In this document: positions 18,335 through 37,842 of the stretch, piece by piece
How positions within the stretch are numbered: position 1 is the stretch's first letter
Layout of the letters: every line of letters starts with the position of its first letter
Origin: Actinomycetota bacterium
GTDB lineage: Bacteria; Actinomycetota; Thermoleophilia; Gaiellales; Gaiellaceae
Length of the DNA: 37,842 bases
NCBI GenBank assembly: GCA_019237315.1
Contig: JAFAHG010000164.1
Span: 1-37,842, forward strand
Reading direction: 5' to 3'
Notes under the pieces: generated by a model
What the model was told of the DNA's origin: nothing
The model's database searches: none
The model's input: the letters and a program-made list of their open reading frames with translations, nothing else
Position numbers and translations under genes: made by a program

Positions 18335-18359
18335 GAGACACACCTCCGCTCGCGCGGTA

Positions 18360-18385
18360 GAGGGCCCGTCGACCGGCGGGCCCTC
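18360..18385 (+). terminator. Hairpin terminator of the satP-family gene
   Basis: GAGGGCCCG pairs with CGGGCCCTC around an eight-base loop, 26 bases after the stop codon. The same hairpin recurs at 24477-24502, and its loop and 3' arm recur at 18845-18860. Confidence 0.75.
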
Positions 18386-18391
18386 GCCGTC

Positions 18392-18600
18392 TCGACGGAG
18401 CGGCGTGGGAGTCGAACCCACCCAGCCGTGGGCTACACGACCTGGCCGGTTTTGAAGCCCAGACCTAGGGCGGTTCGTGAGATCGGCATCGTGCGGGCTC
18501 TTGTTCGTTGTGGAGGTCAATCGAGACGATTGACCACGCGACTGCGGCCCCCGTTGTGGCAGTTCTGGCAGTTCGAAAAAGGTCGCGGCGGATGCTGTTC
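18392..18600. repeat. Dispersed tRNA-Sec-tailed repeat, copy A
   Basis: About 200 bases match copy B at 37646-37842 in the same orientation with small indels; I estimate 80-85% identity by eye. The left edge is sharp: the sequence before 18392 is the satP terminator region, and the duplicate of that region at 24508 continues into unrelated DNA instead. Inside are the tRNA-Sec 3' half on the minus strand (18396-18463) and a perfect nine-base inverted repeat GGTCAATCG/CGATTGACC (18515-18535) kept in both copies. The right edge is not defined because copy B runs off the window. It may be an attachment-site remnant or a mobile short element; no open frame in it looks real. Confidence 0.75.
18396..18463 (-). 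pseudogene. tRNA-Sec (UCA) 3' half
   Basis: Read on the minus strand, the segment has an anticodon loop CTTCAAA with UCA, a four-base-pair variable arm (AGCC CAC GGCT), a perfect T arm (GTGGG TTCGACT CCCAC) and the acceptor 3' strand GCCGCTCC plus discriminator G. The CCA is not encoded. The matching 5' acceptor strand (GGAGCGGC) and a D arm are missing upstream, and the anticodon stem is imperfect, so it is a fragment rather than a functional selC gene. The UCA loop and long variable arm identify tRNA-Sec; a tRNA-like decoy is the alternative. Confidence 0.65.
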
Positions 18601-18649
18601 CTGGAGAAACCGCGGCTTCACGCCGGCTTGCCTTTGTTGCCTCCTTGGA

Positions 18650-18730
18650 CGACGGCCTGGTGCCAGCGCGGCCGCCTGCGAGCCCGGGCAGGTAACAGGT
18701 GAGCAGTGCGTTTGTGCGCGCGCCGCTCTC
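18650..18730 (-). pseudogene. DUF6457 fragment, C-terminal half (inverted)
   Basis: Read leftward, the translation ESGARTNALLTCYLPGLAGG aligns with ESGARTNAPLTCYLLGLVRG of the intact gene at 17253-17501. The start, N-terminal half and a proper end are missing. It lies head to head with an N-terminal fragment on the other strand, so a paralogous gene has been split and partly inverted. Confidence 0.7.
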
Positions 18731-18735
18731 GGAGA

Positions 18736-18844
18736 GGTGTCGCCGATCGACCGGCCGAGGAAACTACGCTCCCGCGCGCGGACTTCGACCTCAGGCCGGC
18801 GGAGATCGAGGCGCTCCTCACGCTCGCGGGCCACGCCGCGCACG
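18736..18844 (+). pseudogene. DUF6457 fragment, N-terminal half
   Basis: Read rightward, GVADRPAEETTLPRADFDL and RPAEIEALLTLAGHAAH align with DVAARLSEETGLPRGDLEL and TPPEIEALLALAGVAAH of the intact gene. There is no start codon of its own. From 18845 the sequence switches abruptly to the loop and 3' arm of the satP terminator. Together with 18650-18730 it accounts for most of one broken DUF6457 gene. Confidence 0.7.
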
Positions 18845-18901
18845 CGACCGGCGGCCCCTCGCCGTCTCGACGGAGCGGCGTGGGAGTCGAACCCACCCAG
18901 C
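18845..18901. repeat. Partial repeat: satP terminator arm plus tRNA-Sec T arm
   Basis: These 57 bases repeat 18370-18426 with one mismatch (46 bases, 18856-18901, are perfect). They hold the loop and 3' arm of the satP terminator followed by the acceptor 3' strand and T arm of the tRNA-Sec fragment, then diverge where the variable arm should begin. This third copy keeps the satP-terminator/tRNA junction, so it derives from the satP 3' flank. Confidence 0.8.
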
Positions 18902-18937
18902 GACGAGCTTTTGTAACCAGATCTGCATACGCAGGGC

Positions 18938-18966
18938 TTGACTTTTGCGACGGCCGCGCGCATGCT
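18938..18966 (+). promoter_or_regulatory. Predicted promoter of the RCC1/FG-GAP/HYR gene
   Basis: TTGACT (18938-18943) and CATGCT (18961-18966) are separated by 17 bases. The leader would be about 28 bases and contains a weak Shine-Dalgarno site GAAAGG seven bases before GTG 19001. This is the best -35/-10 pair in the window. Confidence 0.55.
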
Positions 18967-19000
18967 GAGCGTGGCAGGCGCTGCGGCGAAAGGCCCCTGA

Positions 19001-22000
19001 GTGCACGGCGGTCGGTTCCACGGGGGGATCAGACGGTACGGAGCCCTGGCCGCGCTCGTTTCCGTTCTCGGTCTTGGATCGGCGGTCCCGAGTGTTGCCT
19101 CCGGCCCGCCGCCCACTCCCGCGCCGCAACTTGCAGCCGGCGCATCCCACACCTGTCTCGTCGTCGGCGCGGCGGTCGAGTGCTGGGGTAACAACGAGAC
19201 CGTTGCGGGAGCGCTGACGAATGGCGGCCCGCTCGGGGACGGAACGACGACGAACAGCGCCGTCCCGGTTGCGGCCTCGGTGCTGTCGGGCCAGGCGCAA
19301 GCGGTTGTGGCGGGCATCTACCACACGTGTGTGCTCACGACGACGGAAGCGGTCCAGTGCTGGGGCTTCAATCGCGAGGGCGAATCGAGTCCGGTTCCGG
19401 CCGGCGCCTATAAGCAGGTCTCGGCCGGCTGGTACTACACCTGCGGGCTGACCGACGCCGGCGGCGTTCGCTGCTGGGGCGAGGACCCGTCGCACGCATA
19501 CGTCCTCGGCGATGGGTCGTTGACGAGCGGCGTCGCGGCGATCGCGACCGGCGCCTACAACGTCTGCGCGCTGATGGCGAGCGACGGGAGCGTCGAGTGC
19601 TGGGGGAACGACGACTTCGGACAGCTCGGGCCGGGCGGGACGACATCCCATCCGGTGCCGGTGCCGGGGCTCACCGGCGTGCAGGCGATCACCGCGGGTG
19701 GCGGTTTCATGTGCGCCCTGGAGGGCGACGGAAGCGTCTGGTGCTGGGGGACTAACAACCAGACGCCGTTCATCAACTTCGGTTTCCCGCCGACGGAGCT
19801 GATCGCGAGTGGTGCAACGGCGATCGACGCGTTCTACAACCACGCCTGCGCTGTCGTCTCCGGGGGAGTCCGGTGCTGGGGCGACAACGCGTTCGGGCAG
19901 CTCGGGAACGGGACGACGACTGGGAGCAGCGCACCGGTACAGGTCAGCGGCCTGACGAACGGCGCCGTCGCCGTTGCGGCCGGCTACGACCACTCGTGCG
20001 CGCTGCTGGTCGGCGGCGCCGTCAAGTGCTGGGGGAGCAACTCCGCCGGCCAGCTCGGAAACGGGACGACCGCCGACAGTCTTACACCCGTCACCGTCTC
20101 GCTGCCCGTCGCTCCTCCACTTCCTCCGAGCTTCGGTCCCGCGACCGCCTTCGCGGCGCCGACGAGCCCCCAGGATGTCGTGCTCGCGGATCTGAACGGC
20201 GACGGGAAGCTCGACGCCGTCGTCTCGGACGAGCTCTCGAACAGCGTCGATGTCCTGCTCGGCAACGGCGACGGGACGTTCCAGACCGCTACCTCGTACC
20301 CGGCGGGCAGCTACCCCGGCGGCGTCGCCGTCGGAGACGTGAACGGAGACGGCAGGCCGGACATGGTCGTTGCCGATTCCGGCGCGGACGAGGTTTCTGT
20401 CCTGCTTGGCAACGGGGACGGGACGTTCCAGCCGGCCACGTCATTCTCGGCGGGTGGTGCGGGCGCACTCCAGGTGGCGCTCGCAGACGTCAACCGGGAC
20501 GGAAAGCTCGACATCGTAGTAGCCGGTTTCGGCGGCGTCGCGGTGTTGCTCGGGAACGGGGCGGGATCGTTCGGCGCTCCGACGACGTACGCCACGCCGT
20601 CGACCGCGTACAACCTCGCAGTCGGCGACGTGAACCGCGACGGTAAGGTCGACATCGTTACGGCCGACCAGTTCACGGGCGTCGGCGTGTTGCTCGGGAA
20701 CGGCGACGGCACCTTCCAGCCGTTGCACGAATACTCGGCAAACGCAGGCTCGGGGCAGGACCTGACCGCCGTTTCGATCGGCGATTTGAACGGGGATGGC
20801 AAGCCGGATCTCGCCGTCTCGAACTACGACGGCAACGAGGTCGACGTCATGCTCGGCAACGGCGACGGCAGCTTCGGCGCGCCGACGGCTTACGCAGCCG
20901 GCACGTCCCCTCAGGCCGGCGTGATCGCGGACGTCACCGGTGACGGCCGGCCTGACATCGCGGTCGCAGGCGGTGTCGTCTCGGTGCTTTCAGGGAACGG
21001 CGACGGGACGTTCCAGCCGGCGGTGGAGTATCCCGTCGGACGTCACCCGAACGCCGTTGCCCTGGGCGATGTGAACGGCGACGGCAAGCCCGACCTCGTC
21101 AGCGCGGACGCCGACACGAACACCATCTCGGTTCTCCTCAACACCGCCGTCGGCGTGAGCTTCGCAACGGCCCCCCCGACGATCACGACGACGACCCTCC
21201 CCGACGCGCCGATCCCCGCCGCGGGGAGCGCGAGCTACGCCGCCTCCGTGTCGGCGACCGGCGGGATGTTGCCCTACACGTTCACCGTGACCTCCGGTAG
21301 CCTCCCGCCGGGCTTGACGCTCGACCCCGACGGTTCGATTACCGGAACGGTCTCGAGCTCAGCGACGCCGGGAACGTCGTCGTTCACCGTCAGCGTGACC
21401 GGCGACGACGGCCTCAGTTCGAGCCAGGCTCTCTCGATCACGCTTCTCCCTCCGCCCGATGCGGACCTCGCGATCGGGGTGGCGTCCGGCGTGGTGGTCG
21501 AGTCGAATTACGCGACGGCGGTGAAGTTCGCCGCGCCGGCGGCGTCTGACGAGGGTGGTGAGTCGCCGCCGGTTGTGTGTGATCCGGCGTCGGAGGACAC
21601 GTTCCCGATCGGGTCGTTCACGGTGTCGTGTAGCGCGTCGGATCCGGACGACGCGAACAGTCCGGTGTCGTCGGAATTCTCGGTGACGGTGAAGCCGTTG
21701 CCGCCGGCCTTGGTGGTTCCAGGGCTCGTGTCGACGCCGACCGACCCGGCGGTGGTGCCGGTGTCGGGCACGGTGGCGCCGGGGGCGACGGTGTCGATCG
21801 ACGACGGCTCGACGCTGGTGGGGACTGCGACGGCTGATTCGAGCGGGAGCTTCACGACGTCGGTTGCGTTGAGCGTCGGGTCGCATTCGCTGACCGCGAC
21901 GCAGTCGGTGAACGGCGAGACGAGCGACGTCTCCGGCCCGAGCTTCGTCTCAGTCACGCTCGACGACGATCACGCTCTCACCGTGCCGGCGGACGTCGTC

Positions 22001-23911
22001 GTCGATGCGAACGGCATCACGGGCACAGTCGTCTCGTATGCCGGAGTCGCCGCGTCCGACGAAGGGGGAGAAACGCCGCCGGTGACCTGCAACCCGCTCT
22101 CCGGCTCCCTCTTCCCGATCGGGAAGACCGCCGTGACGTGCACGGCGTCCGACCCAGACGACGCGAACAGCCCCGTGACGGGGATCTTCAACGTGACGGT
22201 CAGGCCGCTGCCGCAGACCATCACCTTCCCGGCGCTCGCGAACACCTACCTCGGCGCTGCGCCGCCGACTGTCAGCGCGACTGCGTCGTCGAGCCTCACC
22301 GTCACCTTCACGACGACGACTCCGCTGACCTGCACGTCCGGCGGGACGAACGGGGCAACGATCACCCTCGCCGCCGTCGGAACCTGCACGGTTCGCGCGA
22401 GCCAGGCCGGGAATGCGAGCTACGCACCTGCTTCGCCCGTCGAGCGGAGTTTCGCCGTCGTGCCCGCCTCGCCCACCCTTTCGGCGCCGGCGACGTCGTT
22501 CTCGACGACCGTCCTCGTGAGCGGCGCAGGCCTGCCGAACGCCTCGGTGTCGATCTATGACGGCTCAACCCTGGCCGGTACGGCGACCGTCGACCCCTCC
22601 GGTGCGTTCGCGGCGACGCTGACCCTGGCCAACGGTACGCACACGTTGACGGCGACGCAGACCGTAAGCGGCCTCACCAGCGCGCCGTCGGCGGCGGTCA
22701 CCGTCAGCGTCGTTCTTGCCGACACGCCCACGCTGCACCTGCCGGGTGATCTCGTCGTTGAGGCCAGGAACGCCTCAGGCGCAGTGGTGCGCTTCACGGC
22801 GACGGCGACCGACCCGGTGGACGGGACGGATCGTGTGTCGTGCAATGCCCGGTCCGGGTCGACGTTCCCGCTCGGCGTGACGGCGGTGACGTGCTCTGCG
22901 ACGAACGCGCACGGCGTGACGGCAACAGGTGGATTCTCCGTCACCGTGCAGGACACGACGCCGCCGGTGTTGCGGCTGCCGCCCGACCGCGTGCGCGAGG
23001 CGACCGGCCCTGACGGACGTGTGGTGCGCTTCCATGCGACGGCAGTGGATGCAGTCGACGGTTCAGTGGCGGTGACATGCGTGCCGGCATCCGGCTCGAC
23101 GTTCCCGCTCGGAGCGACGACGGTTTCCTGCTCGGCGAAAGATTCGGCTGGGAACAGCGCGACGGGAACGTTCTCGGTGACCATCGTGGACACGACACCC
23201 CCGCGGTTGCACCTGCCCGGCCGAGTGATGGCCGAGGCGACCGGGCCGTCGGGCGCACCGGTGTCGTTCACGGCGACGGCTGACGACCTTGTCAGCGGTT
23301 CGGTGCCGGTCGCCTGCGTGCCGTCCTCCGGTTCGACGTTCCCGCTCGGGCAGACGACGGTCTCGTGCTCGGCCACCGATGCGGCTGGGAACACGGCAAC
23401 GGGGAGCTTCCAGGTCGTCGTGCGCGACACGACCGCGCCGGTCCTGACCCTCCCGGCGAGCGCCCAGGCCGAGGCAGTAGGCCCGACCGGGGCGCCCGTC
23501 TCGTTCACCGCCTCGGCGAGCGACGCGGTTGACGGCGTCGTGCCGGTGACGTGCTCGCCCGCTTCCGGTTCCGTCTTCCGCGTCGGGACGACGACGGTCA
23601 GATGCTCGGCAACCGACGCGCACGGTAATCGCGCAACTGGGAGCTTCGGTGTCACCGTGACCGACTCGACGCCGCCGACACTGCACCTGCCGGCGAACCT
23701 GTCGGTGCAGGTGTCAGGACCGGCGACGAGCTCGGTGGTCAGGTTCACCGCGACCGCGACCGACCTGGTCGACGGCTCTGACCCCGTCAGCTGCGCGCCG
23801 GCGTCGGGCTCGAGCTTCCCGATCGGCACGACCACGGTGAACTGCAGCTCCCACGACGCTCACGGCAACGCGACGACCGGCAGCTTCACCGTCACCGTCT
23901 CGCACCGTTAG
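19001..23911 (+). CDS. Secreted RCC1 / FG-GAP / HYR multidomain protein
   Basis: The 1636-residue protein starts with a signal peptide (GALAALVSVLGLGSAVPSVAS). Residues about 45-370 hold seven RCC1 repeats (HTCxL...VxCWGxN..GQLGNGT), enough for one seven-bladed propeller. Residues 380-716 hold seven FG-GAP/VCBS repeats with calcium-binding DxNxDGxxD loops (DLNGDGKLDAVV) and LLGNGDGTFQ ends, a second seven-bladed propeller. A putative Ig domain (PYTFTVTSGSLPPGLTLD) follows, then HYR 1, an Ig-like domain, HYR 2, a TITFPALANTYLGAAPPTV segment, another Ig-like domain, and HYR 3-7 (res 1243-1636), each with a cysteine pair. No membrane anchor or sorting signal ends the protein (FTVTVSHR). It is probably exported and adhesive or ligand-binding; the ligand is unknown. 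GTG start; own promoter upstream. Confidence 0.88.
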   Translation: MHGGRFHGGIRRYGALAALVSVLGLGSAVPSVASGPPPTPAPQLAAGASHTCLVVGAAVECWGNNETVAGALTNGGPLGDGTTTNSAVPVAASVLSGQAQAVVAGIYHTCVLTTTEAVQCWGFNREGESSPVPAGAYKQVSAGWYYTCGLTDAGGVRCWGEDPSHAYVLGDGSLTSGVAAIATGAYNVCALMASDGSVECWGNDDFGQLGPGGTTSHPVPVPGLTGVQAITAGGGFMCALEGDGSVWCWGTNNQTPFINFGFPPTELIASGATAIDAFYNHACAVVSGGVRCWGDNAFGQLGNGTTTGSSAPVQVSGLTNGAVAVAAGYDHSCALLVGGAVKCWGSNSAGQLGNGTTADSLTPVTVSLPVAPPLPPSFGPATAFAAPTSPQDVVLADLNGDGKLDAVVSDELSNSVDVLLGNGDGTFQTATSYPAGSYPGGVAVGDVNGDGRPDMVVADSGADEVSVLLGNGDGTFQPATSFSAGGAGALQVALADVNRDGKLDIVVAGFGGVAVLLGNGAGSFGAPTTYATPSTAYNLAVGDVNRDGKVDIVTADQFTGVGVLLGNGDGTFQPLHEYSANAGSGQDLTAVSIGDLNGDGKPDLAVSNYDGNEVDVMLGNGDGSFGAPTAYAAGTSPQAGVIADVTGDGRPDIAVAGGVVSVLSGNGDGTFQPAVEYPVGRHPNAVALGDVNGDGKPDLVSADADTNTISVLLNTAVGVSFATAPPTITTTTLPDAPIPAAGSASYAASVSATGGMLPYTFTVTSGSLPPGLTLDPDGSITGTVSSSATPGTSSFTVSVTGDDGLSSSQALSITLLPPPDADLAIGVASGVVVESNYATAVKFAAPAASDEGGESPPVVCDPASEDTFPIGSFTVSCSASDPDDANSPVSSEFSVTVKPLPPALVVPGLVSTPTDPAVVPVSGTVAPGATVSIDDGSTLVGTATADSSGSFTTSVALSVGSHSLTATQSVNGETSDVSGPSFVSVTLDDDHALTVPADVVVDANGITGTVVSYAGVAASDEGGETPPVTCNPLSGSLFPIGKTAVTCTASDPDDANSPVTGIFNVTVRPLPQTITFPALANTYLGAAPPTVSATASSSLTVTFTTTTPLTCTSGGTNGATITLAAVGTCTVRASQAGNASYAPASPVERSFAVVPASPTLSAPATSFSTTVLVSGAGLPNASVSIYDGSTLAGTATVDPSGAFAATLTLANGTHTLTATQTVSGLTSAPSAAVTVSVVLADTPTLHLPGDLVVEARNASGAVVRFTATATDPVDGTDRVSCNARSGSTFPLGVTAVTCSATNAHGVTATGGFSVTVQDTTPPVLRLPPDRVREATGPDGRVVRFHATAVDAVDGSVAVTCVPASGSTFPLGATTVSCSAKDSAGNSATGTFSVTIVDTTPPRLHLPGRVMAEATGPSGAPVSFTATADDLVSGSVPVACVPSSGSTFPLGQTTVSCSATDAAGNTATGSFQVVVRDTTAPVLTLPASAQAEAVGPTGAPVSFTASASDAVDGVVPVTCSPASGSVFRVGTTTVRCSATDAHGNRATGSFGVTVTDSTPPTLHLPANLSVQVSGPATSSVVRFTATATDLVDGSDPVSCAPASGSSFPIGTTTVNCSSHDAHGNATTGSFTVTVSHR

Positions 23912-24345
23912 CCACCGTCCCCCCGCGCGCAGGCGGAGACCAAGATCTCGACAACGTCGGCTGACGCGCGGCAAGCGGTCGTCGTCCCCCGAGATCGAAC
24001 CTGCCGCCGAAGCTTCTCGTGCATCCAGTGCGTTCAGGCCAGAGCGGTACGACGTTGCGCCCGAGCCCGTCGAGGAAGCCGAGGCGTCGGCGTGAAATTT
24101 GGCCTTACGAGGTCCGAAGGTAGACGGGAGCGGGGTTTTCGCCCCGCTCCCGTCCGCCTACATCCCGTTAGATTCGGGTAGGTCGGCACGAAGTTCGGTA
24201 CGAAATCGCCCGCGCTCGGGTCGCGGGCAGTTCGCGACCGCTCATGAGCACGTCTGGCGTGTTCGGCTGCTCTGGGATGGGCGGGCGCGCGAATGACACG
24301 GAGTCCCCGCGCGCCCGCGCTAAGACAAGCCGACAAGCGAAGGGC
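23912..24345. other. Intergenic stretch with one strong terminator, otherwise no gene seen
   Basis: The 434 bases after the HYR gene contain the terminator at 24123-24154 and a second hairpin GGTCGCG/CGCGACC (24219-24239). Frames here have no recognisable product. It ends where the duplicated satP tail begins. A TTCGGTA/TTCGTAC-like near-repeat around 24188-24205 gives a repetitive leftward translation (FVPNFVPT) that I could not assign. Confidence 0.6.
24123..24154. terminator. Strong hairpin terminator
   Basis: GACGGGAGCGGGG pairs perfectly over 13 bases with CCCCGCTCCCGTC around a TTTTCG loop. It lies 211 bases after the HYR gene stop, the only strong candidate to end that transcript. No T-tract follows. 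Confidence 0.75.
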
Positions 24346-24451
24346 CATCCCGCTCGGCAAGTAAAAGAAGGCCGCGAACGTCCCGGGTGGGCACGTGATC
24401 CGGCCGATTCAGCTCGAGTGGGCTGAGCCGGGCGTGAAGCAGGGCCAGTAA
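24346..24451 (+). pseudogene. Duplicated 3' tail of the satP-family gene
   Basis: The last 35 codons and stop of the transporter gene (18229-18334) recur here with three substitutions; one changes TAC to TAA and makes an internal stop. The rest of the gene is absent. Including the following terminator, 163 bases align without gaps with seven differences by hand count. The copy is not translatable as a protein and marks a duplication breakpoint. Confidence 0.9.
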
Positions 24452-24476
24452 GACACGCACCTCCGCTCGCGCGGTC

Positions 24477-24502
24477 GAGGGCCCGTCGATCGGCGGGCCC
24501 TC
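24477..24502 (+). terminator. Duplicate of the satP terminator
   Basis: GAGGGCCCG/CGGGCCCTC stem as at 18360-18385, with one loop change. After 24508 the sequence departs from the original: there is no tRNA-Sec repeat here. Confidence 0.7.
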
Positions 24503-24508
24503 GCCGTC

Positions 24509-24634
24509 CTTGATCCCTCATTGGAGAGATTCGCGCTTGACTTCTATCGCGCGTTGAGCAATCGTCAGCTTCAGGCAAGGAAGCCTCCCTGAATCTCCGG
24601 GAACCGGAGAGAAAGGTCTGCGGAAGCGGTTGGG
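24509..24634 (+). promoter_or_regulatory. Upstream region of the giant Ig/NHL gene
   Basis: TTGACT at 24537-24542 is a good -35; the -10 is unclear (AATCGT region near 24560). A hairpin TCTCCGG/CCGGAGA with a three-base GAA loop lies at 24594-24610 in the presumed leader. The stretch follows the duplicated satP terminator directly, so the giant gene once stood directly downstream of a satP-type gene. Confidence 0.35.
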
Positions 24635-27600
24635 ATGGGTGTCGCACAGCGGCGCCGCGAGTCGGGGGACTGCGGCGACGGCCACGGTGGGAGCAGCACG
24701 GTGACGCAGTTGCGAGCCGTGCAGCGCCGGCGTGGACCGCTTGCGATGTGGATCGTCGCCGTGGCGATCCTCGTCTGGGGGCTCGCGTTGTCGAGCTCCG
24801 CGGGCGCGAGCGATCCGTTCGGCGGGCCGACGCACACCTATACGAACATCGCGTTCGGCGGCAACCAGTGCACGGGGACATTCGTGACGACCGCGAACGG
24901 CAGCTTCTTCGAGAGCCAGCGCAACTGCACAAACCCGAGCCTGAACAGCGACGACCTTCTTTTCGTCCCGGGCGACTTCAGCGCGTGTCCGGGGTCGCCC
25001 TTCAGCGTCGACAACACCTACAACACGAGTCAGGATCCGCAGCTCGTCGCGAACACCGGCGGCGGCATTCCGGCGAACACGCCCTACACCGCCTGCTTCT
25101 ACAACGCGAGCGCGGACACCGGTCCGGCGGTCACGCTGTCGGGTGTCGCCTCCGGCTCGGTGTATCCGTCCACGGCGCAGCCGACGCCGTCGTGCACAAC
25201 GACGGCGGGGACGTTCGGCGTCTATCAGAACGCGACCCCGTCGACCGCCTCGTCGGGCGACGCATTCACCGCGACGTGCTCGGGTGGGGAAGACGACTTC
25301 CTCGCGGCCGCCACGCCGGTGAGCGTCAACTACTCGGTGGCGTTGCCTTCCACGTGTAGCGGGATCAACGCGGGCACGTCGCTCACGGACTGCGGCTTCG
25401 AGACGCCGGTCGTCGGCGCGGGCAGCTTCCAGTACAACCTGACCGGCACGCCGTGGACATTCAGCGGGAAGGCCGGCATTTCTGGCAACGGCTCGGGGTT
25501 CACGGGCGGCAACCCGAATGCGCCCGAGGGATCGCAGGTGGGGCTCATCCAACAGGGACCGTCGCTCGGCGGCGGCTCGATCTCGCAGTCGGTCACGGGC
25601 TGGAGCTCCGGGAAGCTCTACACGCTGACGATGAGCATCGCGCAGCGGCTCGCGAACTGCGGATTCGTCGGGTCGATTCCCGGCTGCCAGCCGGAGGACT
25701 TCAAGGTCCTGCTCGACAGCACCGTGATCGGGACGTTCACGGCGAGCAGCGGCACCTACACCGACGTCTCGACCTCGCCGTTCACCGCCTCGACCGGTAC
25801 GCACACCCTGACGATCTCTGGCATCGACAGCGCCGGTGGAGACGACTCCGTCTTCATCGACTCGCTGCGTCTCACCTCGACCGACATCGTCGTCGTCTCG
25901 CCCACACTCTCGACGACGCCGACCGGCGGAGTTGCGTTGGGCGGAGCGGTGTTCGACACCGCGACGCTCGCGGGGGCGCAGAACCTCCTCGGCGGCGACC
26001 AGATCACCTTCAAGCTCTACGGGCCGTCGGCCTCTGCCAACTGCAACGGCACCCCGGTCTATACGCAGACCGTCGCCGTGACGGGGAACGGCAACTACGG
26101 CTCGGGGAACTTCTTCCCGACCACGCCGGGTACCTACTGGTGGACCGCGAGCTTCAACGGCGACGCGGACAACAACCCGGCGTCGAGCGGCTGCGGCTCG
26201 GAGTCGGTCACCGTTTCCGCGGCGTCGCCGACGCTGACGACGACGCCGTCGGCGGGGATCGCGCTCGGCGGGACGGTGTCGGACACGGCGACGATCGCCG
26301 CCGGGCAGGGCCTGCAGGCGGGCGACACGATCACGTTCCGGCTCTACGGCCCGTCGACCTCGGCAAGCTGTTCCAGCGCGATCTTCACCCAGTCGGTGAG
26401 CGTGTCAGGCAACGGCAGCTATACCTCCCCGACCTTCGCCCCGACGGCCGCCGGTACCTATTGGTGGACGGCGAGCTTCAGCGGTGACGCGAACAACAAC
26501 GCCGTCGCGAGCAGCTGCGGCACGGAGTCGGTGGTCGTCTCGAAGGCCACGGCGACGCTCTCGACGACCCCGTCTGCGGGCTACACGTTCGGAAGCGGCG
26601 GCACGCCGGGGACGATCTCGACGGTTGCGGGCATCGGCTCGGGTGGGTTCTCGGGCGATGGCGGGCCGGCGACGAGCGCGCAGCTCTGGCAGTCGTTCCA
26701 GACGGCCTTCGACGCGAGCGGCGACATGCTGATCGACGACTACCAGAACAACCGGGTGCGGCTAGTGGCGGCGGCGACGTGCTCGAGCAACTGCCCCTAC
26801 GGACTTGCCTCGATGACGAAGGGTTCGATTTACACCGTCGCCGGTAATGGGAGCGGCGGTCTTTCGGGCGACGGCGGAGCGGCGACGAGCGCCGCGCTCA
26901 ACTCGCCGGTCGGAGTTGCGGTCGACGCGAGCGGCGATCTGCTGATCGACGACTACCTGAACAACCGCGTGCGGCTGGTGGCGGCGGCGTCGTGTTCGAG
27001 CGGCTGTCCGTACGGGCTCGCGTCGACGACCAAGGGGTTCATCTACACCGTCGCAGGGACCACGGCCGGTTACTCGGGCGACGGGGGGCCGGCGACGAGC
27101 GCTGCGATCAACTTCCCGTTGGGCATCGGCATCGACACGAACGGGGATCTGCTCATCGGCGACTACGGCAACAATCGCGTGCGGCTCGTCGCAGCGGCGA
27201 CCTGTTCGAGCGGCTGCCCGTACGGGCTCACCTCGACGACGAAGGGTTTCATCTACACCGTTGCCGGCATCGGGAGCCCCGGCTTCTCGGGTGACGGCGG
27301 CCCGGCGACGAGCGCCGTGCTTTCGTACCCATACGGCGTCGGCGTCGACGCGCGGGGCGATCTCCTGATCGCCGACGCCCCGAACTACCGCGTGCGGTTG
27401 GTCGCGGCGGCGTCGTGCTCGAGCGGCTGCCCGTATGGGTTCGCTTCGCTGACGAGGGGCTCGATCTACACCGTTGCGGGCAACGGAAGCGCCACCGATT
27501 CGGGCGACGGTGGAGCAGCCACGAGCGCAGGACTCAACTACCCCATCGGAGTGACCGCCGACGCGGCCGGCGACATCCTCATCACCGACAGCGGCAACCG

Positions 27601-30600: not shown

Positions 30601-33600
30601 CAACAACAGCGCGGCGAGCGCGTGCGGGGCCGCTTCCGTCACCGTCGCGAAGGCCACGCCGACATTGAGCACGACCTCTCCGGCGAACATCGTCCTCGGC
30701 GGGGTGGTGTCGGACGCCGCGACGCTCGCCGGTACGCAGAGCGTCGTGACCGGCGACTCGATCACGTTCCGGCTGTACGGACCCTCGGCCACCGCGAACT
30801 GCGCCGCCGCGATCTCGACGCAGTCGGTGAACGTGGCGGCGGACGGCAGCTACATCTCCCCGGTCTTCACGCCGCCTGCGGCGGGCACGTACTGGTGGAC
30901 GGCGAGCTTCAGCGGAGACGCGAACAACAATACGATCACGACTTCGTGCGGAGCCGAGTCGGTCGCCGTGGCGAAGGCCTCGCCGACCCTGGCCAACACG
31001 CCGTCGCCCGGCATCCCGCTCGGCGGCGGCACGCTCAGTGACACGGCGACGATCGCGGCCGGCGTCGGACTTGGCGGCGGCACGCTCACGCTCAAGGTCA
31101 TCCGCTACGCGCTCGGGTCGGCGACCCCGACCGGCGCGCAGGTCTGCGCGGCAGGGCCCGTCTACTCGGTGTTCGTGCACGGCGTGACGCACAACGGCGA
31201 TTACGTCTCGGGCAGCTATACGCCGCTCGCAACGGGCAACTACTACTGGGTGGCGCTCTTCAACGGCGACGCCAACAACAACGCGGTCGACACCTGCGCC
31301 GCGCTGTCCGAGGTCACGGTCTCGCCCGCCTCGCCGACGCTGACGACGACGCCGTCGGCTCCGGTCGTCCTCGGCGCAGGGTCGCTGAGCGATCAGGCGA
31401 CGCTCGCCGGCGGCGTCGGTCTCGGCGGCGGCTCGATCACGTTCGACCTCTACGGGCCCTCTGCGACCGCGGACTGCTCCGGTCTTCCCGTCTACACGTC
31501 GACAAGCGGCGGAATCTCCGCGAACGGCAACGTCGGCTCGGGCAGCTTTTCGCCGACCGCGGCAGGGACGTACTGGTGGACGGCGAGCTTCGGCGGCGAT
31601 TCGAACAACAACGGCGCCGCGACGAACTGCGGCGACGAGTCCGTCACCGTCTCGCCCGCCTCGCCGACGCTGACGACGACGGCGTCGCCGACGATCGTCC
31701 TCGGCGGCACGGTGGGCGACCTCGCCACCCTCGCCGGCGGCTTCAGCCTCGCGTCGGACTCGATCACGTTCAACCTGTATGGGCCCGCCGTGTTCGCGGA
31801 CTGCACGGGGACGCCGGTCGACACCGAGACGGTGAGCGGCGTGTCGAGCAACGGTGTCTATCCGTCGCCGAACTTCACGCCGACAGCGGCCGGCACCTAC
31901 TGGTGGACGGCGAGCTTCAGCGGCGACGGCGACAACAACGCCGCCGCAACGACGTGCGGCCTCGACTCGGTCGTCGTCCAACTCGCGACGCCGACCCTCA
32001 CCTCGACCGCGTCGAACGGGATCGTGCTCGGCGCCGGCACCGTGAACGACCAGGCGACGCTCGCCGGGGGCGTGAGCCTCAGCGGCGGCTCGATCCTGTT
32101 CAGCCTCTACGGGCCCTCCGCGACCGCCGACTGCACGGGAACGCCGGTCTACACGAACACCGCGCCCGTCTCCGACAACGGCAGCTTCGGCTCGGGTGAC
32201 TTCACACCGCTCGACGCCGGCACCTACTGGTGGACGGCGAGCTTCAGCGGCGACGGCAACAACAACCCTGTCACGACGAACTGCGGCGACGCGTCGGTCG
32301 CCGTTGCGAAAGCGACGCCGTCGATCTCGACGGTGTCCGACCCGATCGCGCTCGGCTCGAACGGCGGCGACGCCGCGGCCGTGCTCGGGGCTCAGTCCCC
32401 GCTCGGCGGCGACACGGTCACCTTCGACGTCTACGGGCCGTCCCCGACGGCCGACTGCACCGGCACGCCGGTGTACACCCAGATCGCCCCGGTCGCAATC
32501 GGTCGGCACAAGCCCGGCGCCAGCCCCGTCGTTCGTGCGAGCTCCGGGCACTTCGCCCCGACCGCCGCCGGCACCTACTGGTGGACGGCGAGCTTCAGCG
32601 GCGACGCGAACAACAACGCGGCTTCGACGAGCTGCGGCGACGAGTCGGTCGCCGTGCCGCCGGCCTCCCCGACGCTGGCCAACACGCCGTCGGGCGACAT
32701 CGTGCTCGGCGGCACGGTGTCCGACACCGCGGCGCTCGCCGGGACGCAGTTCCTGACCGGCGGCGACGCGATCACGTTCGCGCTCTACGGCCCGTCCATC
32801 AAGGAGGACTGCACGAACCAGGTGTTCGCGCAGACGGTCGACGTCGCCGCCGACGGAAGCTACGCCTCCACGGCGTTCACGCCGACGGCGGCCGGCAGGT
32901 ACTGGTGGGCGGCGAGCTTCAACGGCGACGCGAACAACAACCCGGCGGCCACGAACTGCGCCGACGGGTCGGTCGTCGTGTCGAAGGCATCGCCAACCAT
33001 CTCCACGACGGCCTCGGCTCCGATCGTGCTCGGGAATTCGCTGAGTGATACGGGGACGCTCGCCGGCGGCGTCGACCTCGGCGGCGGCGCGATCGAGTTC
33101 AACCTGTACGGCCCATCGGCGACCGCAGACTGCTCGGGCCTGCCGCTCTACACGTCGACGGTGGGCGGAATCGCCTCGAACGGCGACGTCTCCTCGGGCA
33201 GCTTCTCCCCGACGGCGGCCGGGACGTACTGGTGGACGGCGAGCTTCGGTGGTGACGCCAACAACAACGGCGTGACGACGAACTGCGGCGACGAGTCGGT
33301 GGTCGTCTCGCCCGCATCACCCACGCTGACGACGACGGCGTCGGGGCCAATCGTCCTCGGCGGCACCGTCGGTGACCTCGCGACGCTGGCCGGCGGCCTC
33401 GACTTCGCGAGCGACTCGATCACGTTCAACCTGTACGGGCCGTCTCTGTTCGCGAACTGCTCGAACGCTCCCGTCTACACGCAGACGGTCGGCGGCGTTT
33501 CGGCGAACGGCGTCTACGCCTCCGCGAACTTCACGCCGACAGCGGTCGGCACCTACTGGTGGACAGCGAGCTTCGGCGGCGACGGGAACAACAACCCGGC

Positions 33601-36600
33601 GGCGACGAGCTGCGGCGGTGCGTCCGTCGTCGTCTCGCCCGCCTCGCCGACGCTCGCGACCGTCGCCTCCGCCGGCGTGGTTCTCGGCGCCGGTTCGGCG
33701 AACGACCAGGCGACGCTCGCGGGCGCCCAGGATCTCCTCGCCGGTGACGCCGTCACGTTCGACCTGTATGGCCCGTCGGCTTCCGCGAGCTGCTCGGGCT
33801 CCCCGGTGTACACGCAGACGGTGCCGGTGTCGGCGAACGGCTCGTTCGGCTCTGGCAGCTTCACGCCGGTCGCCGCGGGTACGTACTGGTGGACGGCGGC
33901 CCTCGCCGGTGACGCGAACAACAACGCCGCCGCGACGACCTGCGGGGACGCATCCGTCCTCGTGTCGAAGGCCACGCCCACGCTCTCCGGCAACCCGTCG
34001 GCCGCGATCGTCCTCGGGGGCGGCACGGTGAGCGACCAGGCGAGCCTCGCCGGAGCGCAGCAGCTCCTGAGCGGTGACGCGATGACGTTCAGCCTCTACG
34101 GCCCGTCGACCTCCGCGAATTGCTCCGGCAACCCGGTGTACACGCAGACAGTGCCGGTATCGGCGAACGGTTCGTTCGGCTCCGGCAGCTTCACGCCGGC
34201 CGCCGCCGGCACGTACTGGTGGACTGCCGCCTACAACGGGGACGCGAACAACAACGGAGCTACGACGAGCTGCAATGCAGAGCCGGTCGTGGTCTCGCCC
34301 GCGTCGCCGACGCTTTCCACGGTCGCCTCGGCCGGGACCGTCCTCGGTGGAGCGGTCTCCGATACGGCGACGCTCGCGGCCGCGCAGCACCTGCTGAACG
34401 GTGATGCGATCACGCTCAGCCTCTACGGCCCGTCGGCATCCGCGAGCTGCTCGGGCAGCCCGGTGTACGCGCGGACGCTGAGCGCGACCTCGAACGGAAC
34501 CTACGGCTCCGGCAGCTTCACGCCGGTCGCCGCCGGCAAGTACTGGTGGACCGCCTCCCTCGCCGGAGACACGAACAACAACGCCGTCGCGACGAACTGC
34601 GGCGACGCCTCGGTCGTCGTGTCGCCCGCGTCCCCGACGCTCTCGACGACCCCGTCCGGCACGATCGTCCTCGCGAGCGGCACCGTGAGCGACCAGGCGA
34701 CGCTTGCGGGCGCGCAGGATCTGCTCAACGGCGACTCGATCACGTTCAAGCTGTACGGGCCGTCGGCGTCGGCGGTCTGCACCGGCACGCCGGTGTACAC
34801 CGCTTCGGCAGCCGTCTCCGCGAACGGCGCCTACTCCTCGCCGAGCTTCTTCCCGGGCGCGGCCGGCACGTACTGGTGGACGGCGAGCTTCAACGGAGAC
34901 TCGAACAACAACGCGGCCGTGAGCGGCTGCGGCGCCGAGTCGGTCGTCGTCTCCCAGACGACGCCCACGCTGACGACGGCGCCGACGCCGGCGATCGTTC
35001 TCGGCAGCGGCACCGTGAGTGACCTCGCGACGCTCGCCGGCGGCGCGAACCTCGGCCTCGACTCGATCACGTTCAACCTGTACGGGCCGTCCACCTTCGC
35101 GGTCTGCACCGGCACGCCGGTGTACACGCAGACCGTGAGCGGCGTGACCGGGAACGGTCTCTACTCGACGACCCCCTTCACGCCGCTGAGCGCGGGCACG
35201 TACTGGTGGACGGCGAGCTACAGCGGCGACTCCAACAACCATGCCGCGGTGAGCGGCTGCGGCGCCGAGTCGGTCACGGTCGCCGCCGACTCGCCGACGC
35301 TCGGCACGACGCCGTCCGGAACGGTCGCGCTCGCCGGAACGGTCTCCGACGCGGCGGCGCTGACGGGCGCGCACAGCATCCTCGGCGGCGACACGGTCGC
35401 GTTCAGCCTCTACGGGCCGTCGGCAACCGCCCTCTGCACGGGTGCTCCCGTGTACATCTCGAGCGGGAACGTGACGACGAGCGGAACGGCCGCCTCCGGC
35501 AGCTTCGTCCCGGCAGCGGCGGGCACGTACTGGTGGACGGCGAGCTTCGCCGGCGACGTGAACAACAACGCCGCGGCGAGCGCCTGCGGCTCCGAGAAAG
35601 TCGTCGTCTCCCCGGCCTCGCCGACGATCACGACCTCCTCTTCGGGCGGCATCGCCCTCGGCGGAACGGTTTCCGACTCGTCCGGTCTCGCCGGCAGCGT
35701 CAACCTGACGGGTGCCGGCACCGTCACGTTCAACCTCTACGGCCCTTCCGCCACGGCCGTATGCACCGGGACGCCTGTCTACACGAAGACGCTGAGCGCC
35801 GTCTCGACGAACGGGCCCTTCGCCTCGGGCGCGTACGCGCCGGTTTCGACGGGCACGTATTGGTGGACGGCGACGTTCAGCGGGGACGCGAACAACAACA
35901 CCGCCGCGACCGCTTGCGGCAGCGAGTTCGTGACCGTGATCCCGGCGAACGCCAACCAGACCGTCGGCGCCGGCCAGACGCTTCAGCTCTCCGGCGGCAC
36001 GCTCCACGGCACGGTGACGGTGCAGCCCGGCGGGACGCTCCTCCTGAACGGCGGCACGCTGACCGGCCAGGTGAACGCCACCGGCGGAACCGTCAACGTC
36101 TCGAGCGGCAGCCTGAACGGCAACGTTCAGCTCTCCTCCGGCGCGACGCTCAACCTCTCCGGCGGCACGATCGCCGGCAACGTCCAGGGTCAGGACACCT
36201 CCGGCGTGTCGATCACCGGCGGCAGCGTGCAGGGGAACGTCCAGACCCAGATCGGGCCGGTCACCGTCGGCTCGGGCGCGACCGTGACGGGCAACGTGCA
36301 GACGCAGGGCGGCTCGATCAACGTCGGCGGCAGCGTCTCGGGCGACGTCCAGTTCAACGCGCCCGGCAACTCGACGGCCTGCGCGACCGTCGCCCTTGCG
36401 TCGAGCGCCTCGGTGGCCGGAAACGTGAGCGTCCAGAACCTCCCGTCGTGCGGTAGCTCGTCGGTGTCGGTCTCGGGTTCGATCGGCAAGGACGTGAAGC
36501 TGCAGCAGGTTGCCGCCGGCGGCTCGGTCACGATCGCGAACGCCGCCGTCGGCGGCCAGGTGCAACTGCAGCAGGTGACGGCGTCGTCGGTGTCGGTGAC

Positions 36601-37285
36601 GGGCGTGACCGGCTCCAAGGATCTGACGCTGAACCAGGTCGGCGCCGTCAACGGCCCGATCGTGGTCGGGAACAACAAGATCGCCGGCCAGATCCAGATC
36701 CAGGAGAACAACACGAGCGTTCCGGGCCTCACCGTGAACGGCAACACGGCCGGGAACGGGCTGAGCGTGCAGCAGGTCACCTCGACGGGCACGCTCTCGG
36801 TGCAGAACGACACGCTCACCGGCGGCAACCTCCAGGTGCAGAACGTGTCGGCGCCCGGTATCACGGTGAACGGCAACCAGCTGACGGGGAACAACCAGAA
36901 CCTGACGGTGATGCAGTCGACGTCGAGCGGGTCGCCGCTCAGCGTCTCGAACAACAGCCTCGGCGGGCAGCTGCAGGTGCAGAACGACACGGCCCCGGCT
37001 GCTCTCGTCAACGCGAACACGGCCGGCCAGCTGACCGTCCAGCAGATCACCGTCTCGAGCGCGGCGGTGCAAGTCGAGCACAACACCGTCGGCGGCCAGG
37101 CGCAGGTCCAGCAGAACGCGTGGTCGCCGACGAAGACGGCGGCCGCGGTGATCGTCGCCGCGAACACAGTCGGCGGGAACCTCTCCTGCAAGAACGACAC
37201 CGGCCCGGCGACCGACCTCGTCTCGGGGACGCCGACGCCAAACACGGTCACGGGTCAGAAGCAGAACGAGTGCGCGACGCTGTAG
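24635..37285 (+). CDS. Giant secreted Ig-repeat protein with two nested NHL propellers and a beta-helix
   Basis: The 4216-residue protein has a hydrophobic export segment (MWIVAVAILVWGLALSSSAG, residues 38-57). The start may instead be GTG 24701, preceded by GGTGGGAG, which removes 22 residues. Residues 60-420 form an N-terminal region including CGFETPVVGAGSFQYN, like a DUF642/galactose-binding module. Then come 23 Ig-like repeats of about 109 residues, each with GTYWWTASFSGDANNN and a cysteine pair (CTGTPVYT, SCGxESV). Two blocks of six NHL repeats (residues about 659-1065 and 1411-1802) are inserted inside two of them. Residues 3770-4216 are a right-handed beta-helix (GxVxVxxGGTLxLxGG rungs) ending in GNLSCKND and NTVTGQKQNEC. 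No sortase motif or membrane anchor is seen. A surface or matrix adhesin is likely; the ligand is unknown. Confidence 0.88.
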   Translation: MGVAQRRRESGDCGDGHGGSSTVTQLRAVQRRRGPLAMWIVAVAILVWGLALSSSAGASDPFGGPTHTYTNIAFGGNQCTGTFVTTANGSFFESQRNCTNPSLNSDDLLFVPGDFSACPGSPFSVDNTYNTSQDPQLVANTGGGIPANTPYTACFYNASADTGPAVTLSGVASGSVYPSTAQPTPSCTTTAGTFGVYQNATPSTASSGDAFTATCSGGEDDFLAAATPVSVNYSVALPSTCSGINAGTSLTDCGFETPVVGAGSFQYNLTGTPWTFSGKAGISGNGSGFTGGNPNAPEGSQVGLIQQGPSLGGGSISQSVTGWSSGKLYTLTMSIAQRLANCGFVGSIPGCQPEDFKVLLDSTVIGTFTASSGTYTDVSTSPFTASTGTHTLTISGIDSAGGDDSVFIDSLRLTSTDIVVVSPTLSTTPTGGVALGGAVFDTATLAGAQNLLGGDQITFKLYGPSASANCNGTPVYTQTVAVTGNGNYGSGNFFPTTPGTYWWTASFNGDADNNPASSGCGSESVTVSAASPTLTTTPSAGIALGGTVSDTATIAAGQGLQAGDTITFRLYGPSTSASCSSAIFTQSVSVSGNGSYTSPTFAPTAAGTYWWTASFSGDANNNAVASSCGTESVVVSKATATLSTTPSAGYTFGSGGTPGTISTVAGIGSGGFSGDGGPATSAQLWQSFQTAFDASGDMLIDDYQNNRVRLVAAATCSSNCPYGLASMTKGSIYTVAGNGSGGLSGDGGAATSAALNSPVGVAVDASGDLLIDDYLNNRVRLVAAASCSSGCPYGLASTTKGFIYTVAGTTAGYSGDGGPATSAAINFPLGIGIDTNGDLLIGDYGNNRVRLVAAATCSSGCPYGLTSTTKGFIYTVAGIGSPGFSGDGGPATSAVLSYPYGVGVDARGDLLIADAPNYRVRLVAAASCSSGCPYGFASLTRGSIYTVAGNGSATDSGDGGAATSAGLNYPIGVTADAAGDILITDSGNRVRLVAAASCSSGCPYGLASTTKGSIYTVAGTGSFGYSGDGGPATSAQLASPWSSTVDASGNLFISDRSNNRVRIVQGATAVSDQATLAGGASPSGSITFNLYGPSSTANCTGTPIYTNGVGVAANGSYGSGSYAPTTAGTYWWTASYSGDGNNNAASSSCGSESVVVAKASPTISTTPSSGITLGGGSVSDQATLAGGSGLAGGSITFNLYGPSSSQVCTGTPVYTDAVSVAGNGSFGSGNYSPTAAGTYWWSASFSGDTNNNSVVSVCGQESVTVGKASPTLSTTPSANTVLGASVSDQATLAGAQSVVSGDTIAFNLVRYTLGSPSPTAAQVCAGTGTGFVGTVFTPTVSVSGNGIVGSGTYTPAATGNYYWWANFAGDANNNAASTCTVVAGVTVSKASPTIATTPSAGLTLGGSGGGATISTVATSVIPFAVAVDANGDSLIADVNQDRIWLVAASSCSSNCPYGLSSMTKGSTYTVAGTGAYGFSGDGGPATSASLFGPYGVTVDASNNMLIADEGNNRIRLVAAASCSSGCPYGLASMTKGFIYTVVGSGGGGFSGDGGPASSATLFTPLAVAFDARGDLLIADYNNSRIRLVAAASCSSGCPWGLSSMTQGFIYTVAGSASAGFAGDGGPATSARLDNPRAVAVDPSGDLLVSDSSNYRVRLVAGASCSSGCPFGLASTTKGSIYTVAGTGGSGFSGDGGPATSATLSFPIGVTSDASGDLVIGDYENYRVRLVAASACSSGCPFGLASMTKGSIYTVAGNGNSSPSGDGGPPTSAGIGYPMAVALDAHGNLLIGDVADAQLRKVQAGGSALSDQATLAGGVSLSGGSITFNLYGPSSSADCTGAPVYSQAASVTGNGPYTSGSYTPTAAGTYWWTASFAGDGNNNAVASSCGTESAVVAKASPTISTTASSGVTLGAGSVSDQATLAGGVSLGGGSVTFNLYGPSSSAVCTGTPAYTQTTSVSGNGSVGSGNFTPTAAGTYWWTASFGGDANNNSAASACGAASVTVAKATPTLSTTSPANIVLGGVVSDAATLAGTQSVVTGDSITFRLYGPSATANCAAAISTQSVNVAADGSYISPVFTPPAAGTYWWTASFSGDANNNTITTSCGAESVAVAKASPTLANTPSPGIPLGGGTLSDTATIAAGVGLGGGTLTLKVIRYALGSATPTGAQVCAAGPVYSVFVHGVTHNGDYVSGSYTPLATGNYYWVALFNGDANNNAVDTCAALSEVTVSPASPTLTTTPSAPVVLGAGSLSDQATLAGGVGLGGGSITFDLYGPSATADCSGLPVYTSTSGGISANGNVGSGSFSPTAAGTYWWTASFGGDSNNNGAATNCGDESVTVSPASPTLTTTASPTIVLGGTVGDLATLAGGFSLASDSITFNLYGPAVFADCTGTPVDTETVSGVSSNGVYPSPNFTPTAAGTYWWTASFSGDGDNNAAATTCGLDSVVVQLATPTLTSTASNGIVLGAGTVNDQATLAGGVSLSGGSILFSLYGPSATADCTGTPVYTNTAPVSDNGSFGSGDFTPLDAGTYWWTASFSGDGNNNPVTTNCGDASVAVAKATPSISTVSDPIALGSNGGDAAAVLGAQSPLGGDTVTFDVYGPSPTADCTGTPVYTQIAPVAIGRHKPGASPVVRASSGHFAPTAAGTYWWTASFSGDANNNAASTSCGDESVAVPPASPTLANTPSGDIVLGGTVSDTAALAGTQFLTGGDAITFALYGPSIKEDCTNQVFAQTVDVAADGSYASTAFTPTAAGRYWWAASFNGDANNNPAATNCADGSVVVSKASPTISTTASAPIVLGNSLSDTGTLAGGVDLGGGAIEFNLYGPSATADCSGLPLYTSTVGGIASNGDVSSGSFSPTAAGTYWWTASFGGDANNNGVTTNCGDESVVVSPASPTLTTTASGPIVLGGTVGDLATLAGGLDFASDSITFNLYGPSLFANCSNAPVYTQTVGGVSANGVYASANFTPTAVGTYWWTASFGGDGNNNPAATSCGGASVVVSPASPTLATVASAGVVLGAGSANDQATLAGAQDLLAGDAVTFDLYGPSASASCSGSPVYTQTVPVSANGSFGSGSFTPVAAGTYWWTAALAGDANNNAAATTCGDASVLVSKATPTLSGNPSAAIVLGGGTVSDQASLAGAQQLLSGDAMTFSLYGPSTSANCSGNPVYTQTVPVSANGSFGSGSFTPAAAGTYWWTAAYNGDANNNGATTSCNAEPVVVSPASPTLSTVASAGTVLGGAVSDTATLAAAQHLLNGDAITLSLYGPSASASCSGSPVYARTLSATSNGTYGSGSFTPVAAGKYWWTASLAGDTNNNAVATNCGDASVVVSPASPTLSTTPSGTIVLASGTVSDQATLAGAQDLLNGDSITFKLYGPSASAVCTGTPVYTASAAVSANGAYSSPSFFPGAAGTYWWTASFNGDSNNNAAVSGCGAESVVVSQTTPTLTTAPTPAIVLGSGTVSDLATLAGGANLGLDSITFNLYGPSTFAVCTGTPVYTQTVSGVTGNGLYSTTPFTPLSAGTYWWTASYSGDSNNHAAVSGCGAESVTVAADSPTLGTTPSGTVALAGTVSDAAALTGAHSILGGDTVAFSLYGPSATALCTGAPVYISSGNVTTSGTAASGSFVPAAAGTYWWTASFAGDVNNNAAASACGSEKVVVSPASPTITTSSSGGIALGGTVSDSSGLAGSVNLTGAGTVTFNLYGPSATAVCTGTPVYTKTLSAVSTNGPFASGAYAPVSTGTYWWTATFSGDANNNTAATACGSEFVTVIPANANQTVGAGQTLQLSGGTLHGTVTVQPGGTLLLNGGTLTGQVNATGGTVNVSSGSLNGNVQLSSGATLNLSGGTIAGNVQGQDTSGVSITGGSVQGNVQTQIGPVTVGSGATVTGNVQTQGGSINVGGSVSGDVQFNAPGNSTACATVALASSASVAGNVSVQNLPSCGSSSVSVSGSIGKDVKLQQVAAGGSVTIANAAVGGQVQLQQVTASSVSVTGVTGSKDLTLNQVGAVNGPIVVGNNKIAGQIQIQENNTSVPGLTVNGNTAGNGLSVQQVTSTGTLSVQNDTLTGGNLQVQNVSAPGITVNGNQLTGNNQNLTVMQSTSSGSPLSVSNNSLGGQLQVQNDTAPAALVNANTAGQLTVQQITVSSAAVQVEHNTVGGQAQVQQNAWSPTKTAAAVIVAANTVGGNLSCKNDTGPATDLVSGTPTPNTVTGQKQNECATL
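26609..27829 (+). repeat. NHL propeller 1, six repeats
   Basis: Six blades of about 68 residues follow the pattern IYTVAGxGxxGFSGDGGPATSA, then a VDASGDLLIDD strand, then NNRVRLVAA. Blades 1-5 are linked by CSSGCPYGLASxTKG. The block sits between FGSGG and VSDQATLAGG, which in other Ig repeats are adjacent. Confidence 0.85.
28865..30040 (+). repeat. NHL propeller 2, six repeats
   Basis: Six blades, the first lacking the SGDGG segment (TISTVATSVIPFAVAVDANG), the last ending QLRKVQ. Linkers CSSGCP(Y/F/W)G repeat five times. It is inserted at the same point of an Ig repeat (LGGSGG before, LSDQATLAGG after) as propeller 1. Confidence 0.85.
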
Positions 37286-37294
37286 CGCGTCAGG

Positions 37295-37300
37295 CATGCT
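37295..37300 (+). promoter_or_regulatory. Predicted -10 box (CATGCT) of the small secreted protein gene
   Basis: CATGCT ends six bases before GTG 37307, the leaderless spacing, and is the same hexamer as the -10 of the gene at 19001. It starts nine bases after the giant gene's stop, so the small gene may also be read through. Confidence 0.4.
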
Positions 37301-37306
37301 GATCGC

Positions 37307-37642
37307 GTGCGGACGACGCTGGTGTTGCTGGTGTTCTTGGCGTTCGCATCGCCCGCGGCTGCCGCGCGAAACCCGAAGCCGTACGTCGCCGAGCTGACGA
37401 GTGTCTCCGTCGACTCCGGCACGGGGTCGGCGAAGTTCGCCTTCAAGGCCGTCGGAGGCAAGGCGACGTCGTTCACGTGCACGCTCACGTTGAGGAAGAA
37501 GCAGATCCGCGTGAAGTCGTGCAACTCGCCGGTCGCCTACGAGAAGCTTGCCGCCGGTTCGTACCTGTTCAGCGTGTACGCGGTCGGCCCCGGCCGTACG
37601 CGCTCCGAGCCGGCACGGAATGCCTTCAAGATCACCCGCTGA
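37307..37642 (+). CDS. Small secreted beta-sandwich protein
   Basis: The 111-residue product has a signal peptide (TTLVLLVFLAFASPAAAA) and one small domain with FTCTLTLRKKQIRVKSCNSP, an AYEKLAAGSYLFSVYAVGP strand pair and the end ARNAFKITR. This is the pattern of a short Ig/fibronectin-like domain common in Thermoleophilia surface proteins ('F.C.l......C.SP..y..L..G.y.F.v.A....G'), with one likely disulphide between the two cysteines. The GTG start is 22 bases after the giant gene; the stop is followed after three bases by repeat copy B. It is probably exported and may associate with the large proteins, but nothing in the sequence proves this. Confidence 0.75.
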   Translation: MRTTLVLLVFLAFASPAAAARNPKPYVAELTSVSVDSGTGSAKFAFKAVGGKATSFTCTLTLRKKQIRVKSCNSPVAYEKLAAGSYLFSVYAVGPGRTRSEPARNAFKITR

Positions 37643-37645
37643 TTT

Positions 37646-37842
37646 TCGACGGAGCGGCGTGGGAGTCGAACCCACCCAGCCGTGGGCTACACGACCTGGC
37701 CGGTTTTGAGCCCAGACTTTGGGCGGTTCGTGAGATCCGGCATCGTGCCGGTTCTTGATGGTTGTGGAGGTCAATCGAGACGATTGACCGCGCGACTGGG
37801 CGCCAGTTTTGGCAGTGCAAAAAGGGCTGTGCGGATGCTGTT
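37646..37842. repeat. Dispersed tRNA-Sec-tailed repeat, copy B (runs off the window)
   Basis: Direct repeat of 18392-18600, beginning at the same CGACGGAGCGG edge three bases after a stop codon. It keeps the nine-base inverted repeat (37769-37789) and has an intact six-base hairpin CCGGCA/TGCCGG (37737-37751) that is degraded in copy A. The window ends within the repeat. Confidence 0.75.
37650..37715 (-). pseudogene. tRNA-Sec (UCA) 3' half, copy B
   Basis: Same T arm, variable arm and acceptor 3' strand as at 18396-18463, but one base is missing in the anticodon loop (CTCAAAA instead of CTTCAAAA). The 5' half is absent, so it cannot be a working tRNA. Confidence 0.65.

Follow-up and report, generated by a model that had tools for sequence, protein, structure and literature searches.

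The window analysed here is the whole of a 37,842-nucleotide contig (C180) from a 2.33-Mb source genome (G000), which is assembled in 301 contigs and is about 91% complete. It contains two direct repeats, A (from 18392) and B (from 37646), each of which carries the 3′ half of a tRNA-Sec gene (selC) on the minus strand. The 5′ half of the gene is absent from both. The initial annotation described a repeat of roughly 200 bp; the tRNA part of this, a 64-bp block running from the anticodon loop to slightly beyond the tRNA end (18392–18455 and 37646–37709), is identical at 64/64 positions, but the adjoining sequence of about 130 bp on the anticodon side is only 87% alike (115/132 identical, with 14 gapped columns). 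Copy A (18392–18470, minus strand) extends from the anticodon loop to the tRNA 3′ end plus 4–5 bp and is joined to an element end, subsequently referred to as E (18471–18600, minus strand), which is the sequence that is 87% identical to that beside copy B. In copy B (37646–37723, minus strand) the anticodon loop is one T shorter than in A. The corresponding element end E′ (37724–37842, minus strand) is cut by the contig end, leaving repeat B incomplete. E holds a perfect inverted repeat, GGTCAATCG-AGA-CGATTGACC, and also contains two AACTGCCA repeats. No match to E was found in the relatives, and the core of the palindrome was absent from the GTDB contigs and IMG/VR data searched.

The match of the block to the Rfam tRNA-Sec model is weak (23.8 bits; cut-off 47) and covers the anticodon loop, variable arm, T arm and 3′ acceptor strand, with the 5′ side unmatched. 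The block is up to 91% identical to the intact selC of relatives over about 65–70 bp, and ARAGORN called no tRNA in the window. The description of A and B as direct repeats with a tRNA-Sec 3′ half and no 5′ half is therefore borne out by the identical block, the Rfam alignment and the selC genes of the relatives. A further piece, A′, corresponds to the last 35 bp of the block (18867–18901, minus strand) and is accompanied by 22 bp from the outer flank of A (18845–18866). A 30-bp piece of the block occurs three times in the window, compared with no matches in 100 dinucleotide shuffles. All three copies lie on one strand and none was found elsewhere in the source assembly, so that the repeat is not one that is scattered over many unrelated loci. 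As a possible attP, the selC half gave no match in IMG/VR.

The left part of the window follows the gene order common to the source genome and its relatives up to about 17.06 kb, where this order breaks; its last gene is a 178-aa ORF (16520–17056, plus strand). Beyond this point lie a small DUF6457 gene (17253–17501, minus strand) and, outside A, a gene for a YaaH-family (GPR1/FUN34/YaaH) transporter (17585–18334, plus strand). The possibility that yaaH is a conserved neighbour of selC was rejected, as it has other contexts in relatives. The 19-kb interval between A and B is accessory, as had been proposed, but A itself (18392) is not the boundary: because the conserved gene order ends at about 17.06 kb, the accessory region starts before A and includes the DUF6457 gene and yaaH. 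The gene content of the window at this place is not carried by relatives, whose chromosomal gene order continues differently after about 17.06 kb.

The outer flank of A consists of the 3′ end of yaaH with its terminator hairpin (18229–18391, plus strand). This 163-bp segment is duplicated at 24346–24508 (plus strand, 96% identity) as copy D, which is without the tRNA block, the identity stopping exactly at the tRNA edge. A second copy of DUF6457 is present in pieces at 18669–18731 and 18739–18853, with one part inverted relative to the other, and these pieces sit between A and A′. Together, the yaaH-end duplication, A′ and the DUF6457 pieces suggest homologous recombination within an already repeat-rich array.

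Three genes, all on the plus strand, form the cargo between A and B. The first encodes a 1636-aa secreted protein with RCC1, FG-GAP and HYR domains (19001–23911), the second a 4216-aa secreted repeat protein with NHL repeats and repeats of about 109 aa (24635–37285), and the third a 111-aa protein with a signal-peptide-like N-terminus and no family (37307–37642), which occupies the place expected for an integrase. The second gene is 12.65 kb long; its ~109-aa repeats, about two dozen in number, have no Pfam match. Two blocks of NHL-type repeats of ~71 aa lie among them, and the C-terminus is of a different repeat type. Little space remains in the interval for any further gene. A PF00589 profile search of the window contig gave no match, and the earlier statement that no integrase is present holds for the A–B interval; any element closer to selC would be beyond the end of this contig and outside the scope of that statement. 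Neither of the two large cargo proteins has a match near the selC of relatives. The GC content is equal inside and outside the interval. A shift in tetranucleotide composition is present, but is confounded by the repeat proteins.

These features could be accounted for by a single site-specific event that made one scar, the other copy and the cargo having arisen via homologous recombination or segmental duplication, in which case A–B was never a mobile unit. Such an origin is consistent with the interval having no integrase, with the duplicated yaaH terminator at 24346–24508 and with the presence in A′ of the outer flank of A, and integration alone yields neither of the latter two. However, the outer flanks of A and B differ and the edges of the repeats coincide with those of the tRNA block. 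Furthermore, a simple duplication of A to B does not explain an identical block beside element ends (E and E′) that have diverged by 13%. An origin of this kind is considered unlikely.

The initial annotation had suggested that the repeat be sought in the rest of the genome and in related genomes. Among 60 relatives searched the block was matched in 26, and many contain an intact tRNA-SeC according to ARAGORN. Eleven displaced selC 3′ halves were found in nine other genomes (G008, G014, G023, G024, G034, G038, G043, G049 and G052), with a further, weaker extra copy in G027. In all eleven, as in A and B, the identity to intact selC ends at the anticodon loop. Wherever selC and a copy are on one contig (G043, G052 and G038), every copy is downstream of selC and on the same strand. 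In 12 copies, A and B included, agreement with intact selC amounts to 28–45 of 45 nt downstream of the boundary compared with 5–13 of 30 nt upstream of it. This drop falls at the anticodon-loop TTCAAAAC, although the G024 copy instead starts at CAAAACC.

A break within the anticodon loop, where tRNA introns are also located, is what would be seen if the halves were not attachment sites but parts of a tRNA-Sec gene that is split or contains an intron. Nevertheless, an uninterrupted selC coexists with the halves in relatives, and every displaced copy is a 3′ half with no 5′ tRNA-Sec half found near any of them. This explanation is largely refuted and is regarded as extremely improbable.

In G049 (JAICJC010000069.1, ‘Thermoleophilia bacterium’) a 484-aa tyrosine integrase lies between two displaced selC halves, 360 bp from one of them, with the second half 12.3 kb away. 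The layout is that of A–B, except that G049 has the integrase at the selC-proximal end. A search of the GTDB contigs with this integrase returned its own record as the sole match. In G052 a C-terminal integrase remnant is present between selC and its copy, which are 4 kb apart; the two integrases are only distantly alike. Other genes between or beside the copies in relatives encode a Gp49/HTH toxin–antitoxin-like pair, Fic, an ERCC4-domain protein, a Mutator transposase, amino-acid metabolism functions and CHRD proteins. In two genomes of different genera, G008 and G024, a CHRD-domain gene adjoins the displaced selC half (L071:960-1406 and L059:1223-2215).

Partial selC repeats with variable cargo recur across related genomes, the comparison being one across genera and not across strains of one species. 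Serial partial copies that have no integrase are found in the source genome as well as in several relatives (G014, G043 and G023). It may be that incoming DNA carried partial selC copies through which cassettes were acquired by homologous recombination, giving an additive flexible island that has no active integrase; in published cases of such islands partial copies of tRNA-Lys recur (PMC10872708). The sharp edge at the anticodon loop in many genomes, together with the integrases of G049 and G052, instead favours recombination that was site-specific, if only at the origin, and growth of the island by homologous recombination alone is thought to be quite improbable.

Locating the intact selC gene had been proposed as a check. 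It is intact in relatives of the same order but was not found in the source assembly, where the Rfam RF01852 matches checked were only other tRNAs (Ser, Leu, Arg, Gly, His and Trp). Likewise, a congener SelB query against this assembly gave only distant matches (identity at most 37%). A different contig of the source genome, C21, carries an fdhA gene whose in-frame TGA falls where selenocysteine is expected (NQARI-TGA-HSSTVPSLGTSFGRG; L141:1-2809, about 12.0–14.8 kb of G000:C21). It is accompanied on C21 by genes for further formate dehydrogenase subunits and adjoins a gene with FdhD and MobA-like domains, selD and selA, with the contig ending inside selA. The source genome encodes selenocysteine use, and given the presence of this fdhA, selD and selA, selC must exist in it.

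The relatives have selA, selB and selC close together, the selB assignment resting on the sequence start and a lepA cross-match. Most simply, selB and selC would lie in the gap that separates the end of C21 from the right end of C180, and the orientations agree. What follows selC downstream in congeners is a formate dehydrogenase operon and rplI-dnaB instead of yaaH and the ALDH genes, and therefore either a rearrangement or a different position of selC must be assumed in the source genome. It is frequent in these genomes for a contig to stop at the block (11 contigs within 100 bp of it), as is expected because repeats hinder assembly. The last 143 bp of C180, used as a query for extending the contig, matched only copy A. 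C63, a contig with a partial integrase at its start, was rejected as a linked piece, having neither selC nor a link to the window; C163 (pfkA) and C157 (dnaB) were rejected as the far side of the locus, the block being in neither. The congeners G006, G007, G010 and G012 (genus g1) have no selA and no tRNA-Sec above background, G007 consisting of only 10 contigs, which suggests loss of the selenocysteine trait within part of this genus.

The explanation favoured here, to which a probability of about 0.7 is given, is that A and B are attachment-site scars, namely selC 3′ halves displaced by at least two related elements that integrated successively at the anticodon loop. Each incoming element would bring its own selC 3′ half, by which the tRNA gene is restored while the old 3′ half is displaced outward, such that the newest element adjoins the intact gene, with the older scars in line downstream. 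The minus-strand order would then be selB, the intact and unassembled selC, possibly a further element ending in E′, then B, the 19-kb cargo, E, A, yaaH and the chromosome. Integration of stacked elements at this loop accounts for the block as well as for its boundary, identity and serial occurrence. If the selC of the host itself is the source of each copy, an identical block (64/64) beside flanks of 87% identity is to be expected. The repeat with its boundary, the occurrence of this boundary in relatives, the integrases within such elements of the relatives and the use of selenocysteine by the source genome are all observed. Site-specific integration as the cause at this locus, the order of stacking, the position of selC and the loss of an integrase are inferred from them.

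Against stacked integration stand the A–B interval, which has no integrase, the contig, which has no intact selC, and the flank, a weak point because the genes downstream of selC in congeners are not those found here. As no integrase lies at the selC-proximal end, the A–B element may have decayed or may have been moved by the integrase of another element. A′ and D require events additional to integration, and the yaaH-terminator duplication and the A′ piece point to later recombination inside the array. The original proposal of an island or stacked insertions at a selC-derived site is supported by the halves in relatives, which have the same start, lie downstream and are co-oriented, and by the integrase in G049 and its remnant in G052.

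The locus belongs to a known kind of insertion hot spot, here in a little-studied group known mostly from metagenomes, and the present data mark selC as a recurrent insertion site in this Thermoleophilia order. The exact block edges can be used for finding island cargo. Repeats of the block are also a likely reason that assemblies of these genomes break at selC, with the result that selenocysteine users can appear to be without the tRNA. A more speculative suggestion, which is held to be unlikely, is that the selC half serves as a general cassette boundary, with integrase-less cargo such as giant surface proteins and toxin–antitoxin pairs being added and removed by a selC-specific tyrosine integrase acting in trans. 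If true, this would make selC a main accumulation point for stacked cassettes in an uncultured Thermoleophilia order.

Attachment at tRNA-Sec has been described for the Pf prophages of Pseudomonas aeruginosa, which are tyrosine-recombinase elements that use this gene as attB (PMC7549136). Their attP is a 27-bp piece of the T-arm and 3′ end, whereas the block described here is 64 bp long and starts at the anticodon loop, and no phage genes are present. The anticodon-type scar of selC therefore differs from the T-arm-type tRNA-Sec site of the Pf phages. In Escherichia coli, selC is a known island target (PMC6174562; PMC7545054); accessory DNA beside selC is shared with the present locus, but the cargo and the host are unrelated. 

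In its workings the locus resembles an array of the tRNA-gene islands of Islander (PMC4383910), where the anticodon (‘A’) is one of the listed crossover subsites and tandem arrays are also described. Shared with these are a displaced 3′ fragment from the anticodon loop, co-oriented serial fragments and cargo between them. A and B conform to the Islander definition of a fragment, in that they start at a known crossover subsite and reach the tRNA 3′ end, and the distance from A to B (19.25 kb) is inside the 2–200 kb length range of such islands. An intact gene with a co-oriented fragment downstream is seen in G043, G052 and G038, but selC is unassembled in the source genome. An integrase within the island is found in G049 and as a remnant in G052, but not in A–B. 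Nor does each unit of the array have its own fragment and its own integrase, the window having two full 3′ halves, one piece and no integrase. Because the defining integrase is lacking and the intact gene at the end is unassembled, A–B is classed as a probable integrase-less relative of a tRNA-gene island array and not as a proven member.

Tycheposons, as presented in PMC10872708, are similarly bordered by tRNA genes and carry cargo, and it is on these two features that the likeness is drawn; selC is not stated as a border there, and tycheposons have a tyrosine recombinase whereas the A–B interval has none. The additive flexible islands of the same report are marked, as they grow, by recurring partial tRNA copies, there a 20-bp tRNA-Lys end and here half of selC together with shared element ends. 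These islands with their tRNA-Lys copies are the nearest published picture of the array described here.
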